Below, piece after piece: positions 2,969 through 28,447 of a DNA stretch of 29,443 nt. Origin of the DNA: a virus. The position numbers and the translations under genes are program-made. The first letter of the stretch is position 1. Every line of letters starts with the position of its first letter. The stretch is taken from IMG/VR virus record IMGVR_UViG_3300034102_000077, positions 1 through 29,443 of that record; one strand, given 5' to 3'. Under the pieces are notes generated by a model that did no database searches, had not been told where the DNA came from, and saw only the letters and a list, made by a program, of their open reading frames with translations.

Positions 2969-3189
2969 CACCATCTAAACTTAAACTAGCAAGAGTAGCT
3001 ATGGGCTACAGCGTAACAGAGATGGCTGACGCTTTACGCCTATCGCCAGACAATGGCGCAACCAGCATACGCAAGATGGAATCTGGCAAGGTGCGTATCA
3101 GTGGGCCAATAATGGTTGCAGTCGATGCAATGCTAAAAGGCTATGATCCATTCGGCGATGATTATGAGGACGAAGATGGACAATATTAA
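2965..3189 (+). CDS. XRE-family-like helix-turn-helix protein
   Basis: 74 residues. LKLARVAMGYSVTEMADALR followed by LSPDNGATSIRKMESGKVRISGP has the order of a phage-type HTH: the first helix, EMADAL as the scaffold helix, then a recognition helix around GATSIRKMESG. The tail is very acidic (DPFGDDYEDEDGQ). The ATGA overlap with the upstream gene and the 14-base overlap with the downstream DUF3310 gene show operon-style coupling. A transcriptional regulator of the middle genes is plausible but no target site is visible. Confidence 0.7.
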   Translation: MTPSKLKLARVAMGYSVTEMADALRLSPDNGATSIRKMESGKVRISGPIMVAVDAMLKGYDPFGDDYEDEDGQY

Positions 3190-11078: not shown

Positions 11079-11251
11079 AGATGGGATTGTATGCCAATAT
11101 CAATGCGAAACGGAATCGCATTAAGGCTCAGAAGGCTGCTGGCAAGACACCAGAGCGCATGAAGAAGGTCGGCAGCAAAGGTGCGCCAACGAAGGCTGAC
11201 TTCATCGCATCGGCAAAGACTGCCAAGCCAGTGAAGGGCAAAACCAAGTGA
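11075..11251 (+). CDS. Small basic hypothetical protein
   Basis: 58 residues: MKMGLYANINAKRNRIKAQK, later GSKGAPTKADFIASAKTAKP, ending in Lys-rich sequence. The opening GLYANINAKR-x-RI and the GSKGAPT element are a recognisable pair in small phage proteins encoded near the coat gene. No function is known. It overlaps the previous gene by 4 bases and its TGA overlaps the GTG start of the next gene, so three genes here are translationally linked. Confidence 0.75.
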   Translation: MKMGLYANINAKRNRIKAQKAAGKTPERMKKVGSKGAPTKADFIASAKTAKPVKGKTK

Positions 11252-11565
11252 CAGACTTCCCAACCATTCTTTATCGCATCCCTGGGCCTCACAAGAAGAA
11301 ACGTGGGTTGACCTATGGTTACAGAGGCGCTGCGGATCAGGAAGCATTTGACGCATTGATCGCCAAGGGCTGGTCTGCGTCTTATGAAGATGCTGCAAGC
11401 AAGCTAGATAAGAAGCCAAAGGCTAAGGCTGTTGAGATTGATGAAGTCTCTGGCCCAAGCCGTGAGGAACTGGAAGTTAAGGCAAAAGAATTAGGGGTAT
11501 CGTTTAATGCACGAACTTCTGATATAACGCTGTCAGATCGCATAACGTCAGCATTGGAAGTCTGA
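11248..11565 (+). CDS. Hypothetical head/neck-region protein with HeH/LEM-like C-terminus
   Basis: 105 residues from GTG 11248, in a GTGA overlap with the upstream stop. The N-terminal part (FPTILYRIPGPHKKKRGLTY, then FDALIAKGWSASYEDAA) is a pattern seen in phage proteins around the connector genes. The last 35 residues (SREELEVKAKELGVSFNART, then LSDRITSAL) resemble the HeH/LEM or Rho-N helix-extended-helix motif, with ELEVKAKELG and LSDRI as the two helices. It may bind DNA or the portal region. Unproven. Confidence 0.65.
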   Translation: MTDFPTILYRIPGPHKKKRGLTYGYRGAADQEAFDALIAKGWSASYEDAASKLDKKPKAKAVEIDEVSGPSREELEVKAKELGVSFNARTSDITLSDRITSALEV

Positions 11566-16704: not shown

Positions 16705-16774
16705 TTGTGATATGGTTTTGCCACAGAGCCTTAAAGAGCAGCCTGTGGCTCATTTCGTAAAGGTGATGCTGTGA
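16649..16774 (+). CDS. Possible small ORF bridging to the cupin-SET gene
   Basis: 41-codon frame (MIYVLVKHKKNESLNLKIDC then DMVLPQSLKEQPVAHFVKVM and a final L) starting inside the upstream gene and ending with TGA at 16772-16774, which overlaps the GTG start of the cupin-SET gene (GTGA). Two other GTG-start genes here (11248, 28055) use the same overlap with a real upstream stop, which favours this ORF. The ribosome site at 16649 is poor; ATG 16712 would give 20 residues. No motif. Confidence 0.4.
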   Translation: MIYVLVKHKKNESLNLKIDCDMVLPQSLKEQPVAHFVKVML

Positions 16775-17658
16775 CTGCAATATGCCGCACAAAAGACATT
16801 GATACAGTTGAAAGCGTTCTTATTGAGCCTTTCACAAAGGCTTTCAATGAAGCTGATGTTCAGCGTCTAGAGTCGGCACTTCTTGACCTACCACAAGCTG
16901 ACTGCCCTATTACACATCGCTTTGCTCAAGGCATTTACATTCGTGAAGTTCGTATGCCAGCAGATGCTTATATAGTAGGTCATCATCACAAGACTGCTCA
17001 CTTCAACAATATGCTATCTGGTCGCCTTACTATCTTAAACGATGATGGCACAAAGACGGAGCTAGTTGCTCCACAGTCGTTCATTGCACCTCCTGGACGT
17101 AAGATAGCTTACATCCATGAGGATGTGATTTGGCAGAATATCTTTGCTACCAACGAACGTGACGTTGATACGCTTGATGAGATGTTCCTAGACAAAAGTG
17201 AATCTTGGCAGGAATCAAAGAAGTTCAACCAGATGCTGTTGAGCTTTGACCACTCTGAGGATATTGCTGACTTTTACGCAGCGATTGAGGAGTTTGGCTT
17301 TGACGCTGAGACAGTGCGGGAAATATCTGAATTACAATATGACCAGATTCCGTTTCCGCATGGCGAGTATAAAGTTGCGCTGGGTGATAGCCAGATCGAA
17401 GGCAAAGGATTGTTTGCATCTGGTAACATTCCACAGTTTGAGGTAATTGCACCAGCATTGATGGGCGGACTACGCACACCAGCAGGGCGTTATACCAACC
17501 ATTCAAAGAATCCGAATGCAATGATGTTCCGTATGGAAAATGGTGATATATATCTAGTTGCTATGCGCGACATCTCAGGATGCAAGGGCGGCAGCAACGG
17601 CGAAGAAATTACAGTAGATTATCGTCAGGCTTTGATAGTGACGATAGGGGGATATTGA
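16771..17658 (+). CDS. Cupin-SET domain fusion protein (candidate protein lysine methyltransferase)
   Basis: 295 residues from GTG 16771. Residues 45-140 form a cupin: histidine cluster HHHKTAHFNNMLSG (71-84) with GRLTILND, then a PQSFIAPPG (101-109) and an H-E-D-V-IWQNIF element (116-125). Residues 205-290 form a compact SET domain: IEGKGLFASGNIPQFEVIAP, NHSKNPNAMMF (243-253, the N-H-S-x2-PN SAM/lysine-pocket motif), then MRDISG and GEEITVDY (277-284) with the catalytic-type Tyr284. SET enzymes transfer a methyl group from SAM to protein lysine. The substrate could be a virion or host protein; the location among virion genes makes a structural-protein target attractive. Between the domains is an acidic helical linker. 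Activity is inferred from conserved motifs. Confidence 0.8.
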   Translation: MTAICRTKDIDTVESVLIEPFTKAFNEADVQRLESALLDLPQADCPITHRFAQGIYIREVRMPADAYIVGHHHKTAHFNNMLSGRLTILNDDGTKTELVAPQSFIAPPGRKIAYIHEDVIWQNIFATNERDVDTLDEMFLDKSESWQESKKFNQMLLSFDHSEDIADFYAAIEEFGFDAETVREISELQYDQIPFPHGEYKVALGDSQIEGKGLFASGNIPQFEVIAPALMGGLRTPAGRYTNHSKNPNAMMFRMENGDIYLVAMRDISGCKGGSNGEEITVDYRQALIVTIGGY

Positions 17659-17659
17659 T

Positions 17660-18295
17660 ATGAGTGCAGTAGCAGCGGCAGTTATTGGAAGCGCAGTCAT
17701 TGGCGGCGCTGTTTCCATGAGCGCAGCAAGTAAGGCTGGTAAGGCGCAAGTGCAAGCGGCTGATGCTGCTGCGGCTGAACAGCGTGCGGCGCGTGAAGAA
17801 ATGCGGACGCTACTTAACCCTTATGTGTCCGCTGGTACGCCAGCCCTACAAGCTCAGATGGCGGCACTAGGGCTGTCAGGTGCAGAAGCACAGCAAGCAT
17901 TTGTCACGCAGCAAGAGCAAAGCCCATTCTTTCAGTCATTGGCTCAACAGGGTGAAGAAGCAATCCTGCAAAACGCATCGGCAACTGGTGGACTTCGTGG
18001 CGGGAATGTTCAGGGTGCATTGGCTCAATTTCGTCCAGCGTTGCTAAATCAATTCCTTGAGCAGCAATACAGTCGCTTGGGTGATTTGACTAAGGTCGGT
18101 CAAGCATCGGCGGCTGGTGTTGGGGCAAATAGCATGACTGCTGCAAGTAATATTGGCAACGCATATACCAATGCAGGGCAAGCAAGAGCAGGATCAATAT
18201 TAGGTCAAGCCGGTGCTTTCAATCAATCTCTGAATACACTCACTGGCTTTGGCGTTAGTAAAGAAGGCCAAGCAGCATTTGGGAAGCTTTTCTAA
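17660..18295 (+). CDS. DNA ejection protein, P22 gp7-like
   Basis: 211 residues (P22 gp7 is about 229). Hydrophobic small-residue N-terminus (AAAVIGSAVIGGAVSMSAAS), then Ala/Gln-rich helix and the gp7-type middle: LLNPYVSAGTPALQAQMAAL, QSPFFQSLAQQGEEAILQNA, SATGGLRGGNVQGALAQFRP and YSRLGDLTKVGQASA. P22 gp7 is carried inside the head and released into the envelope to form part of the DNA conduit. It is the first of three consecutive genes in the gp7-gp20-gp16 positions. ATG 17660 starts just after the upstream stop; its own stop overlaps the next ATG. Confidence 0.8.
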   Translation: MSAVAAAVIGSAVIGGAVSMSAASKAGKAQVQAADAAAAEQRAAREEMRTLLNPYVSAGTPALQAQMAALGLSGAEAQQAFVTQQEQSPFFQSLAQQGEEAILQNASATGGLRGGNVQGALAQFRPALLNQFLEQQYSRLGDLTKVGQASAAGVGANSMTAASNIGNAYTNAGQARAGSILGQAGAFNQSLNTLTGFGVSKEGQAAFGKLF

Positions 18296-19140
18296 TGGCA
18301 CAACCATACGACTATACCTTACCAAATCCTATGATTGCTTTTGAGCAAGCCTATAAATTTGGAAATTCAATCGCAGCAAGCAAAGCGGAAGATTTAAACA
18401 ATGAAAAAGCAAAAATAGCATTGCAGTCTGTTGCGACTGATAGGTCACCAGAAAACATTGCTAGGGTTTTTCGTGACTTTCCCGCATTAAGAGAACAGAT
18501 TACAGCAAGCGAATCCGTATTAAATGAAGCCCAGAAAGCTGCTGACAACGAATTTCGGTCACAAGTAATAGGTCTAACGAAAAGCGGAAACATAGATTTG
18601 GCACGAGCGCGTCTGCAATCACAAGCAGATGGCTATGCTAATACTGTTGGTAAAGAAAAAGAAGCTAAGGCAGCAAATGCAATGCTTCAAGTATTTGATA
18701 AAAATCCTGATGCCGTTAGTATGACGCTTGGCATTCAGTTGGCTGGAAGCAATAAAGATTTATATGAAGCATTATTTAAAGGTAGTGAATTAACTTCCTT
18801 TCAGAAAAGCCTAGTGGCGGCTGACATTAACCCTAAAAGTCCTCGCGGCATTGCTCTTGCTGAGGCATTTGCAGTTAACCAAGCTGATCCTCTTGTCGAA
18901 ATTGCCACGCCAAGTGGAGGAAAGTTTGTCGGGCCTCGTTCCGAATATTTTAAGCGTTATGGCGAAAATGCGCCAGCGCCAGCAGCAATTGCTCCAGTAG
19001 AGGCAATAGAAATGTTGCTTACTGGCCAAGGGACTGCAGCTGATTTTGATGCTATTTTTGGCAAAGGCAAAGCGGCGGAATACTTAAAATTAAAAGGAGG
19101 TCAGACGGGGAAGCCGTCTGGTAACTTTCAAGGGCAGTGA
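18295..19140 (+). CDS. Internal virion/ejection protein (gp20 position)
   Basis: 281 residues, mostly helical and polar with no signal peptide: YDYTLPNPMIAFEQAYKFGN at the start, long helices in the middle, and a Gly/Pro-rich linker at the end (KGGQTGKPSGNFQGQ). It lies between a gp7-like and a large ejection protein, the gp20 slot of P22, so packaging in the capsid and ejection into the cell envelope are likely. The TGA at 19138-19140 comes immediately after the linker, and a peptidase-like domain continues in the +1 frame, so this product may be only the unshifted form of a longer protein. Confidence 0.7.
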   Translation: MAQPYDYTLPNPMIAFEQAYKFGNSIAASKAEDLNNEKAKIALQSVATDRSPENIARVFRDFPALREQITASESVLNEAQKAADNEFRSQVIGLTKSGNIDLARARLQSQADGYANTVGKEKEAKAANAMLQVFDKNPDAVSMTLGIQLAGSNKDLYEALFKGSELTSFQKSLVAADINPKSPRGIALAEAFAVNQADPLVEIATPSGGKFVGPRSEYFKRYGENAPAPAAIAPVEAIEMLLTGQGTAADFDAIFGKGKAAEYLKLKGGQTGKPSGNFQGQ

Positions 19141-19450
19141 CATAAACCCGATTGGTGATCTTGGAAAGATTGGATTCCGTCCTACTAGTGGATTCAGAAC
19201 ACAGAAGCACCAAGATGCATTAAGGGCGCAGGGCTTGACAACAACAAAGACGGGATCGCATCCTATAGGTGATGGATTAGACTTTTTCCCACCAAAAGGA
19301 ATGTCAATCCAAAGTGCTATTGCTACTGTTAAACAGAAGTATCCAGGTGCTAAGGCTATCCCTAGCAACAAAGGCGCAATTCATATAACCTTCCCAGGCT
19401 GGGGTAAGGCCCCTGACGTAAGTCGTTCTCGCGAAAGATATGGTGTTTAA
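19139..19450 (+). CDS. M15-like peptidase domain in the +1 frame of the preceding ejection protein
   Basis: About 103 residues reading DINPIGDLGKIGFRPTSGFR, TQKHQDALRAQGL, then SHPIGDGLDFFPPKG and IHITFPGWGK. The H-x2-G-x3-D pattern (His41 and Asp48, counting from the GAC at 19139) and the late His82 match the zinc ligands of M15 D,D/L,D-carboxypeptidases and sit next to the expected Arg segment (GFRT). The open frame begins after a TAA at 19085 and contains no ATG, GTG or TTG before TTG 19235, which would cut off the Arg segment; CTG 19118 is the only upstream candidate. It is therefore probably expressed as a +1 fusion to the upstream ejection protein (281+103 residues), or the gene is frameshifted. 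A peptidoglycan-cutting virion enzyme used during entry is the likely role. Confidence 0.65.
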   Translation, partial: DINPIGDLGKIGFRPTSGFRTQKHQDALRAQGLTTTKTGSHPIGDGLDFFPPKGMSIQSAIATVKQKYPGAKAIPSNKGAIHITFPGWGKAPDVSRSRERYGV

Positions 19451-19452
19451 TT

Positions 19453-22116
19453 ATGGCTGAAAATCCCTTTGCACGATTTAAGACAGGTGACACTGTGCAG
19501 GATACATCTCCTTCGCAAGGCGTTCTTATTCCTAAAGAACCTGAAAAGCCAGAAAAGCCAAGAGAGGCTCCTGCTGGCTATCGGTATAATGCTGCTGGCA
19601 ATGTGGAGTTTATCCCTGGTGGCCCCGCCGATCCTGCTGTTATTGCGAAAGAGGCGGCAGCTCGTCGTGGCGGAGAAAAGACTTTTCCTGAAGGTGCAGC
19701 AAATAAACTTACAGAAGATGTAGGCCAAGTAGAGGCATTAACTCGTGCGTTAGGCGGATTCCAAGACGATTTTGCTGGCAGTTTTCTTACTGGGGCCGAA
19801 AGTGCTTTGCAGGGTGCTGGGTTAGATTTTGGCATGGCAACCCCAGGCCAAAGGAATTGGTGGGCTGATTTTAATAGCACTGACAACATTATCCGTAATA
19901 AGCTTTTCGGGTCAACGCTTACTGATGGCGAAAAAGCAGCTTATCTAGCCACTACCATTGCGCCTTACACTGACCCGCAAATAATAAAAGAGAACCTTCA
20001 AAAACGTCTTGATATTATCAAGAAGGCAACGGAGCGTCGTTACAATCGCTATATTGCCGCTGGCTATAATCCAGCAGAAGTTGAGGCAACTGTTGGTGAT
20101 GTTGATTTTCGTATTTTGCCACAAGAAGCTCCAGCTGATACTGGTGCGGGAACAGGCGCAGAACCTGGAACTGAAGCAGAGCTAATTGAGTTTGAGACAA
20201 ACCCAGATTTGGTCGTTGGTAAAGATGGTAAAGTATATAATATTAAAACTGGTGAAGTCGTTCTACTTCCATCTCAAGGTGAACCAACAGGAACAGACAT
20301 TGGGCAATCATTATATGCTGCTGGTGGCGACATAGCTCAAACTGCTGGTGATGTGCTTGGTATTGTTGGTAATCCAGCCAATGCCGCAGTTAATGCGGTG
20401 CTTGGTACAAATCTTTCGACCAATCTTGGTGAAACATTCCGCGAGGCAACTGGCGCACCAAGGGGTGATCCTTTGGCAAGCGCAATTAATCGAGGTATTG
20501 CTACTGCAATGACTGGGCTTGGTGGCGCATCCCTGGCTGCAAGAACCTTGCCTCAAGCTGGTAGACAGATTGCAGCCACATTAACGGAATTACCAACACA
20601 GCAAATAATCGGCGGTGGTACTGGCGCTGCTGCGTCTGAAGTTGTTCGTCAGCAAGGCGGTGGCCCAGTTGCTCAAACTGTAGCTGGTCTTGTAGGTGGC
20701 ACTACCCCTGCGGCTATTGTTCGCCCAAGGCCTACGTCTGTGCCTACAACTGCAACAGCTCCGACAACATCGGCAATGGAAGCATTGATGGCGCAGCCTA
20801 CTGGCCGTGAAATTGTTGAGGCTGGCAGGCAAGCAAATATTCCAATTATGACGTCAGACCTTCCGTCTCGACAGCCAACTACATTTATTGGAGCAGGAGC
20901 ACAAAGGGCTGCTGAACGCATTCCTATTGTTGGAACAGGAGGACTTCGTGCTACCCAACAACAGGCGCGTGAGGATGCTGTAAGAGATTTTCTTGTTGAA
21001 AATTCTGGTGCAATTCCAAAGGATGCTTCCGAAAGATTAGTTGCGGATGCCGTTCGCAAAAATGCTGATACACTGGATAAATATTCCACTAGCAAAGGAG
21101 AGGTTTTCTCTAACGTATCAACGGCTGGCGCTGTTCCACCGACTAACGCTTTGCAAAAAATTGATGAGCAAATTGCAAAACTATCCAGTCGAAGAACGAC
21201 TGCTGGGGATGAAGCGGTTGCAAAATTGCAGGAGTTACGTCAAAAATTAGTCGATGATCGAGACATTTACCAAATGGAATCGTTCCGCAGCGATGAATTA
21301 GGTAATGCCTTTAATGATGCCAATTTGTCCATTGGCGCATCTAACCTTGTGCAAAGGGCTGTTAGAAACGTTTATGGGCCATTAAATGAAGACATTGGTC
21401 AATTCATTTTACAGAATGGCGGTAAGCAGGATTATACTAAATGGCGTGTTGCAAATGCACGATTAAGTGCTGGTTTAGAAGAAGCCAAGCGCAAGTCTCT
21501 TAAAGCTATTTTGCAGCGCGGTGAAGCAGATCCACAAACTATTGAAGCCATGCTTTTCAGTGGCAAGAAAAGTGATGTCGCTGCTTTTTACAGAGCATTG
21601 ACGCCAGAAGGACAGTCTTTGGCTCGAATGGCTGTCGTTAATCGCATTGCTGAAAAAATGGGAACAGGCTCTGTTAGCCCTGAAAAATTTGTTTCTCAGG
21701 TAGAAAAGCAAGCAAACCAAATTGGAGTGTTTTTCTCTGATGCCCAACAAAAAGACTTAAAGGGATTAGTTCGGGCCTTGAATGCTACTAGTAGAGGTGG
21801 CCAAGCTCCAATTATGACGAAAAGCGGTCAGGAAAATTATTTTCCGATAATCGCGGGATTATTTGGCATAGGTTTGGACACCCTTAAAACTGGAGGCGTA
21901 GGAACAGGCCTTGCGGCTACCTTTATCGCAGGTGCTCGACTATATGAAAGCAAACCTGTCCGCACTCTTTTTGCTGCACTAGATAAAACTAAAGCTGGAA
22001 GCGATCAAGAACGGGTAATTATAGGAAAGATTAACGAGAAGTTTGCGCCAATTGTTGCAACACTTTCTGCCGTGAAATCTGAAGAAGAAACGCCAACTGC
22101 TGAAATGCCACAATGA
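19453..22116 (+). CDS. Large internal virion/ejection protein (gp16 position)
   Basis: 887 residues. A short N-terminal disordered stretch rich in Lys/Glu/Pro precedes APAGYRYNAAGNVEFIPGGP, a motif I associate with large phage internal proteins. It is followed by helical regions (IIKENLQKRLDIIKKATERR), a Gly/Ala-rich segment with amphipathic or membrane-prone stretches (about 290-430: AGDVLGIVGNPANAAVNAVL; GLGGASLAARTLPQAG) and long helices to the C-terminus, ending with a hydrophobic Gly-rich segment (ITGLFGIGLDTLK-like, near 799-830). In P22 the large gp16 helps DNA cross the inner membrane. Position after the gp7/gp20-like genes and before the tailspike fits. No enzymatic motif was found. 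Confidence 0.75.
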   Translation: MAENPFARFKTGDTVQDTSPSQGVLIPKEPEKPEKPREAPAGYRYNAAGNVEFIPGGPADPAVIAKEAAARRGGEKTFPEGAANKLTEDVGQVEALTRALGGFQDDFAGSFLTGAESALQGAGLDFGMATPGQRNWWADFNSTDNIIRNKLFGSTLTDGEKAAYLATTIAPYTDPQIIKENLQKRLDIIKKATERRYNRYIAAGYNPAEVEATVGDVDFRILPQEAPADTGAGTGAEPGTEAELIEFETNPDLVVGKDGKVYNIKTGEVVLLPSQGEPTGTDIGQSLYAAGGDIAQTAGDVLGIVGNPANAAVNAVLGTNLSTNLGETFREATGAPRGDPLASAINRGIATAMTGLGGASLAARTLPQAGRQIAATLTELPTQQIIGGGTGAAASEVVRQQGGGPVAQTVAGLVGGTTPAAIVRPRPTSVPTTATAPTTSAMEALMAQPTGREIVEAGRQANIPIMTSDLPSRQPTTFIGAGAQRAAERIPIVGTGGLRATQQQAREDAVRDFLVENSGAIPKDASERLVADAVRKNADTLDKYSTSKGEVFSNVSTAGAVPPTNALQKIDEQIAKLSSRRTTAGDEAVAKLQELRQKLVDDRDIYQMESFRSDELGNAFNDANLSIGASNLVQRAVRNVYGPLNEDIGQFILQNGGKQDYTKWRVANARLSAGLEEAKRKSLKAILQRGEADPQTIEAMLFSGKKSDVAAFYRALTPEGQSLARMAVVNRIAEKMGTGSVSPEKFVSQVEKQANQIGVFFSDAQQKDLKGLVRALNATSRGGQAPIMTKSGQENYFPIIAGLFGIGLDTLKTGGVGTGLAATFIAGARLYESKPVRTLFAALDKTKAGSDQERVIIGKINEKFAPIVATLSAVKSEEETPTAEMPQ

Positions 22117-27875: not shown

Positions 27876-28058
27876 ATGGCTACCATTGACGAAACACAAG
27901 CACAACTTAACACCCATGAACAAGTCTGTGCGTTTCGATACGAAAGTATCTGTGCGCGGATGAAGCGTATTGAGAGCATTGGTATCACTGCTTGTGGCGC
28001 AATCATTATGCTGCTGATAGGCATATTAGTAAGCGTCTTGCAAAAGGGTGCTGTGTGA
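27876..28058 (+). CDS. Small membrane protein of the lysis cassette
   Basis: 60 residues: a polar helical N-terminus (DETQAQLNTHEQVCAFRYES, ICARMKRIESI) and one C-terminal membrane helix (IGITACGAIIMLLIGILVSV). The architecture (soluble coil then a terminal TM) resembles XhlA-type or other holin-accessory proteins. Its TGA overlaps the endolysin GTG, tying it to lysis. It may be an antiholin or holin partner of the protein at 28449; which is unresolved. Confidence 0.65.
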   Translation: MATIDETQAQLNTHEQVCAFRYESICARMKRIESIGITACGAIIMLLIGILVSVLQKGAV

Positions 28059-28447
28059 GCATTGTTCTAGGTCAACGTAGCCTTTCACGGCTTGAGGGTG
28101 TCCACCCTGATCTAGTGCGCGTTGTAAAGAAGGCTGCTGCAATATCAGATTTAGACTTCACTGTGCTTGAAGGTCTCCGCACTCTGGAACGGCAACGTAA
28201 ATTGGTTGCAGAGGGCGCATCGAGGACAATGAAGTCTCGGCACCTTACTGGACACGCAGTCGATCTTGCTCCGCTGATTGATGGCAAGGTATCTTGGGAC
28301 TGGCCTATTTACCATAGACTAGCTAAGATCATAAAGGCTGCTGCGGCAGATGAAAAGGTTCCGCTCACCTGGGGCGGTTCGTGGCGAGCTTTTAAGGATG
28401 GCCCACATTGGGAATTACCTTGGGCTTTTTATCCGAAAGGAAAGTAA
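28055..28447 (+). CDS. M15-family endolysin (L-alanyl-D-glutamate-type peptidase)
   Basis: 130 residues from GTG 28055 in a GTGA overlap with the upstream gene; AAAAGGG lies just upstream, so longer in-frame starts are rejected. Zinc ligands of M15 peptidases are visible: SRHLTGHAVDL (His63, Asp70) and GPHWEL (His118), with the Arg segment EGLRTLERQR at 39-48. Length matches T5-like endolysins (about 137). It cleaves the peptide stems of peptidoglycan at the end of infection. No signal peptide, so it needs the holin at 28449. Confidence 0.92.
   Translation: MSIVLGQRSLSRLEGVHPDLVRVVKKAAAISDLDFTVLEGLRTLERQRKLVAEGASRTMKSRHLTGHAVDLAPLIDGKVSWDWPIYHRLAKIIKAAAADEKVPLTWGGSWRAFKDGPHWELPWAFYPKGK

Follow-up and report, generated by a model that had tools for sequence, protein, structure and literature searches.

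The break in reading frame between an ejection-protein gene (ORF A) and a peptidase-like M15-type domain, found in an IMG/VR virus record of 29443 bases (hereafter the window), is very probably best explained by programmed +1 ribosomal frameshifting at UUU_C, which would give products of 281 and 384 residues (table 1). Comparison of related sequences suggests that translation in many uncultured phages, as well as in one or more phages in culture, probably involves the skipping of a single base at a recurrent cassette. This is composed, in order, of a Shine-Dalgarno (SD) sequence GGAGGY, a hairpin of 6-8 bp immediately after it, a linker of 5-6 nt and UUU_C/U, with a 0-frame stop almost always at most four codons further on. 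A preliminary description of this DNA had given the coordinates of ORF A and of the M15-like frame, as well as the M15-like ligands, as we recover them here. It had also raised a programmed +1 shift by which a virion protein would be made both plain and with a wall-active tail, a proposal to which the conserved junctions described below lend strong support.

Table 1. Features of the window around the proposed shift site
Feature	Position	Strand	Remarks
P22 gp7-like ejection protein	17660..18295	+	Pfam P22_gp7 2e-07; phrog_598 DNA ejection 6e-31
ORF A, 0-frame product	18295..19140	+	ATG start; 281 aa; TGA 19138-19140
Internal Shine-Dalgarno GGAGGT	19096..19101	+	In-frame Gly-Gly
Hairpin CAGACGG-GGAAG-CCGTCTG, 7 bp	19102..19120	+	Starts right after the SD; folds at -12.3 kcal/mol (z -5.1), every shuffle being less stable
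Linker GTAAC, 5 nt, hairpin to shift codon	19121..19125	+	
Proposed shift site UUU_C (TTTC)	19126..19129	+	All tabulated +1 junctions have UUU_C or UUU_U
+1-frame extension, M15-type zinc domain	19127..19450	+	106 residues after Phe278; TAA 19448-19450; predicted fused product 384 aa
0-frame stop TGA	19138..19140	+	Three codons after the shift codon
P22 gp16-like DNA transfer protein	19453..22116	+	phrog_770 7.1e-50; tblastn to P22-like phages

ORF A occupies the slot of P22 gene 20, between the gp7-like and gp16-like genes, and the head and ejection block of the window is P22-like (portal, phrog_156 1.1e-138; gp7-like; ORF A; gp16-like). Matches to phrog_917, which is annotated as "released from the phage upon host infection", were obtained for four of 39 ORF A homologues (best 1.1e-05) and not for ORF A itself. 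Its predicted model is alpha-helical (mean pLDDT 80), and a PDB search with this model gave no significant match. The proteins upstream of the junctions belong to one family, with all 152 of the 152 full-length ones in a single blastp component. Residues 1-278 of ORF A would be common to both predicted products. Elsewhere in the window, the product of a gene with a GTG start (16771-17658) has a SET domain (Pfam 3.2e-07) and, at its N terminus, a weak match to cupin; such a protein is unusual in a phage, and its gene lies among the virion genes. A second, separate M15-type gene (27992-28447; TTG start listed; Pfam Peptidase_M15_4; phrog_465 endolysin, 5.6e-61) is probably the lysis endolysin.

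The M15-type frame, +1 relative to ORF A, is open from 19094 to 19450 and encodes ...TFKGSDINPIGD...TSGFRT.KHQ...SHPIGDGLDFF...GAIHITFPGWG. The earlier observation that no usable start precedes the domain is borne out, ATG, GTG and TTG all being absent from the +1 frame ahead of the domain and inside its first 20 codons. The bases at the break are identical in a separate IMG/VR contig (IMGVR_UViG_3300042563_000028). Moreover, a scan of viral contigs with the window type of domain (M15a) gave 62 loci, in all of which the break is kept at the same place; every M15a relative found thus departs from the single continuous frame that the preliminary description had suggested looking for. Since the break is conserved, it is not the recent mutation or base-calling error that had been listed among the options. 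The phase of codon-position entropy switches at the junction, and downstream the third positions of the +1 frame carry 1.18-1.37 bits versus 0.32-0.60 at positions 1 and 2; judged by this pattern, the downstream frame is under coding constraint.

The shift had originally been placed at CAG-UGA-C, with AAGGG as stimulator and UGA-C as a weak stop. Two relatives, L016 (TTT TAA GGG TAG TAA at the junction) and L061 (TTT TGA), indicate that UUU, and not the CAG before the stop, is the last codon common to both frames, so that in the window the join falls at UUU_C, three codons upstream of the stop. Neither AAGGG nor UGA-C is conserved: in L016, L033 and L044 a stop replaces CAA or CAG. Third-position variation just before UUU fits the 0 frame (GGT/GGC/GGA/GGG) and after UUU fits the +1 frame, and both frames join at UUU_Y without a gap.

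We examined 158 distinct +1 junctions, picked by reading frame alone, from phages, prophages and the cultured cyanophage Pam1. In this unfiltered test the whole element (SD, hairpin and UUU_Y) is present in the correct frame in 157, the sole exception being L360, where SD and UUU_C are in place and the hairpin is longer and less regular. Among the 159 junctions tabulated, the slippery tetranucleotide is UUU_C in 152 and UUU_U in seven, and GGAGGN or GGGGGN is found in all 159, by the rule of that search. The 0-frame stop, which may be TAA, TGA or TAG, comes 0-4 codons after UUU in 153 (overall range 0-15 codons) and, as TGA or TAA, directly after it in seven; CGN follows UUU in 66. The spacing is similarly regular over 118 distinct cassettes: the hairpin starts directly after GGAGGN in 115, 89 linkers measure 5 nt and 20 measure 6 nt, and the distance in line from SD to shift codon is 24 nt in 96 and 27 nt in 15. 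The loci, though drawn from many samples, are not independent. The preliminary description had seen AAGGAGGT as a distant start signal and had missed the hairpin directly after it; the conservation of this sequence points to a stimulator and not to a start.

These 118 cassettes contain 40 distinct pairs of hairpin arms. In the class with 7 bp and a 5-nt loop (21 sequences) 97.3% of cells are paired, with 43 double changes and a covariation of 0.76 versus 0.17 when shuffled, and in the 7-bp class with a GNRA tetraloop (14 sequences) 100% are paired, with 0.94 versus 0.43, both sets (A5 and A6) having been taken from predicted folders, which favours covariation somewhat. Pairing in the two classes lies far above shuffled and slid controls. 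Shorter hairpins of 6 bp have UCCG or GCAA loops. A structural search for the cassette over the loci returned 185 matches in 6.5 Mb versus two in a mirrored control of equal size, and exactly one match on both strands of the window. The pattern matches in L204 and L209 are gene starts of an unrelated protein and were discarded. In Rfam the cassette has no match.

An exact-pattern search of viral contigs with the CAGAC...GTCTG form identified, among the matches listed, non-homologous domains behind the same cassette, namely M15a, M15b, M15c, M15d, SLT transglycosylases and others. M15b bears the signature SYHxxxxGAVDI...GPHWH, while M15c and M15d correspond to Pfam Peptidase_M15_3. The window ORF A and its counterpart in L328, which has M15b in place of M15a, share 49% identity over the length of ORF A (blastp). 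At the level of sequence, the hydrolase modules are interchangeable on one ejection-protein family. In L189 (TTT 1494) and L203 (TTT 1794) the cassette precedes a domain with no Pfam match (NNPGNLRVPG...), possibly a further wall-active type, and in L487, a bacterial genome locus read on the reverse strand (TTT 1197), the long +1 frame has an extra domain (GSISTVR...) before an M15d-like one.

The predicted model of the window M15a domain (mean pLDDT 90.6) has LysECD7 (Z 6.8, 91 residues aligned) and ChiX (Z 6.5) as its nearest solved structures. All structure matches with Z of at least 5 are LAS-type folds (M15 endolysins, ChiX, Hedgehog, VldE), and the Foldseek E value is only 0.0096. The peptidase label given to this domain holds in part. 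The zinc ligands, H-x6-D and a later His (H53, D60 and H94, numbered on the translation of window 19103-19447), are invariant in alignment A1, as is the Arg of TSGFRT. M15 and other LAS enzymes use as general base an acid at -3 or a His at -2 from the last zinc His. This base is absent here, the window reading NKGAIHIT and alignment A1 holding only non-acidic residues next to that His. H36, D57, N89 and D105 are likewise invariant in M15a; one of them could replace the general base, or the M15a domain could only bind. M15b and M15c retain H-x-H and M15a is without the usual base, so that a wall-cutting role is likely for the domain group and putative for the window's own copy.

The element also occurs outside viral contigs. 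Bacterial loci with it were found in Pelagerythrobacter marinus (L144; Sphingomonadales) and in two genomes of the same order (L468 and L469). In the cultured phage Pam1 the cassette reads GGAGGT-CAGGCGG CTCCC CCGCCTG-CTGGC-TTTT (L498 3937-4279; ON014753.1 about 11173-11515). The 0 frame of its "DNA/protein translocase" gene ends in FSDWL*, and the +1 frame continues into an M15b domain that is annotated only as a 49-aa fragment, Pam1_15. Sphingopyxis phage VSN-002 (gene_41) has M15b fused in frame, without the cassette. Among named phages, searches with the cassette DNA gave chance matches only, and neither the region (blastn) nor the M15a domain (tblastn) had any match. The Manatee Spring contigs, PfAn1 and Pan3 have no hydrolase running on from a cassette at this gene end. 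The cassette-DNA search is insensitive, since Pam1 was nevertheless found via its M15b domain. The exact cassette pattern was absent from 385 genomes of the class to which the L144 genome belongs, where stem sequences differ.

Two kinds of variant depart from the +1 arrangement. Four loci (L139, at 2985-3012; L407, L409 and L425, near 2500) lack the cassette and require a -1 shift, carrying C_CCU_UUC, a standard -1 heptamer. In nine others (L163, L222, L238, L253, L372, L376, L380, L398 and L434) the cassette is retained although the hydrolase lies in frame 0. In eight of these the +1 frame ends after 2-4 codons and the +2 frame runs for 11-45; in the ninth, L372, the SD and hairpin are weakened and the +1 frame is, by eye, longer. 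The sequences of these nine loci are suggestive of a mirror arrangement in which shifting would make the short form, a grade we give because some of the loci are related and the pattern partly follows from the coding sequence.

The following course of events would account for the conserved junction. Ribosomes on ORF A would read GGAGGU and then the hairpin, which can refold behind them. With UUU in the P site, tRNA-Phe, whose anticodon GAA re-pairs on UUC or UUU, would slip one base forward to UUC with perfect pairing, the slip being aided by the SD:anti-SD duplex, by the refolded hairpin 5 nt upstream, or by both. Given that SD and hairpin stand head to tail, the geometry implies that 5-6 nt would separate the SD from the P-site codon once the hairpin has refolded. 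Ribosomes staying in frame would stop three codons later and those that slip would add the M15-type domain. We infer that the shift occurs, and at an efficiency such that the ejection protein in virions would be largely the plain form, a smaller share carrying a wall-cutting or wall-binding tail. In bacteria UUU_Ynn is especially +1-prone and an internal SD stimulates +1 shifting at 3 nt (PMC5009743), and an upstream hairpin stimulates +1 shifting on 70S ribosomes (PMC6321510). Two features of the cassette count against the +1 reading. In line, the SD is 24-27 nt from the shift codon versus 3 nt in release factor 2 (RF2), and a distance of 5-6 nt results only when a looped-out hairpin is left out of the count. 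In addition, a hairpin of 7 bp lying 5 nt from the P codon would have to form inside or at the mRNA exit channel.

The strongest competitor, which we nonetheless judge improbable, is internal initiation or termination-reinitiation, whereby the SD, with the hairpin shortening the distance, would set off translation of the hydrolase on its own from a non-AUG codon, CTG 19118 for instance, as the preliminary description had also considered. GGAGGT is indeed a near-perfect SD, strong enough for start function, and 112 of the 159 junctions have an NTG 9 nt ahead of the +1 codon; yet the remaining 47 have none at that position, and the CTG there is the end of the hairpin arm (TCTG), hence explained by the stem. 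Initiation at CTG 19118 is unlikely because this codon belongs to the 3' arm, and only 106 of the 159 junctions have CTG there. The separate hydrolase start envisaged for relatives does not appear either, no start codon being conserved at any position. Furthermore, such initiation would leave unexplained the invariant UUU_Y, the in-frame GGA GGT, the 0 frame open to UUU in all relatives, and the four -1 and nine in-frame fusions. The chances of -2 frameshifting or short bypassing in place of +1 appear very slim: the frame relation alone cannot separate +1 from -2, but after a -2 slip from UUU tRNA-Phe would land on ACU, GCU, CCU and similar triplets, without pairing, and UUU_Y is a known +1 site (PMC5009743). 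We give equally little credence to the hairpin being a signal for recombination or processing of DNA or RNA, for example a site of hydrolase-module exchange, with frameshifting incidental. Modules are indeed swapped behind an identical cassette, but between stems of very different sequence nothing is preserved except pairing, spacing and frame, as suits an RNA with a role in translation and not a homology site, and only decoding calls for UUU_Y and the 0-frame stop; the exchange of modules may be a consequence. Finally, a mutation, pseudogene or assembly error in the window contig, always possible for a frame break in a single contig alone, has a negligible probability against the same break at more than 150 distinct loci in many metagenomes, at three bacterial genome loci and in the Pam1 genome, and against the coding constraint on the downstream frame.

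Returning to +1 frameshifting, we lean towards viewing the cassette as a previously undescribed composite recoding element, in which the SD and the abutting hairpin, whose helices may stack at the mRNA exit, would jointly drive slippage at UUU_Y. It would act as a general module that plugs unrelated peptidoglycan-active domains onto one ejection protein at a set ratio, and the frame-0 loci would keep it to make the short form, so that the ratio would be under selection. In a partial coverage of the literature, we found no published frameshifting paper on ejection or internal virion proteins that describes this system. The cassette would explain why annotation of these phages has overlooked wall hydrolases or broken them into fragments, Pam1 being an example, and suggests that some short-tailed phages set by recoding the number of injected proteins with a wall-active tail. 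Pam1 and its host are both cultured, and the claim is therefore directly testable.

The closest known parallel is the prfB (RF2) cassette, which likewise has an internal SD upstream, a +1 slip of the P-site tRNA and a 0-frame stop, a minority of RF2 genes using UUU_U (PMC5009743). In contrast to the 3-nt spacer of prfB, the SD here lies 24-27 nt away, the interval being taken up by a hairpin; the stop, in RF2 a UGA directly after the shift codon, is here of any kind and usually 1-3 codons later (directly after UUU in 7/159); and the outcome would be a virion protein lengthened at its C terminus, autoregulation not being apparent. The slippery tetranucleotide is shared with the UUU_Ynn sites of bacterial tests, of yopN-tyeA and of influenza A (UCC_UUU_CGU), UUU_CGN being also the commonest form here, whereas the conserved SD and hairpin stimulators and the modular fused domain are not. 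Designed constructs offer another parallel, in which a stable hairpin placed shortly before a +1 site stimulates the shift by mimicking an internal SD (PMC6321510), while the hairpin described here is natural, conserved and accompanied by an SD. Lambda G-GT, the T3 capsid and the Listeria PSA capsid and tail similarly have a shifted minority product with a common N-terminus, and the direction of the shift differs among relatives in phage frameshift fusions (PMC5009743); here the target is an ejection protein, the tail is wall-active and the signal is different. In-frame hydrolase fusions (gene_41 of VSN-002; SLT domains of other phages) also place a wall-active domain on an injected virion protein, but they have no cassette and, the fusion being in frame, every copy of the ejection protein carries the domain. 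To the few known bacterial +1 stimulators, the cassette would add a recurrent structured signal whose natural covariation data define the allowed geometry.
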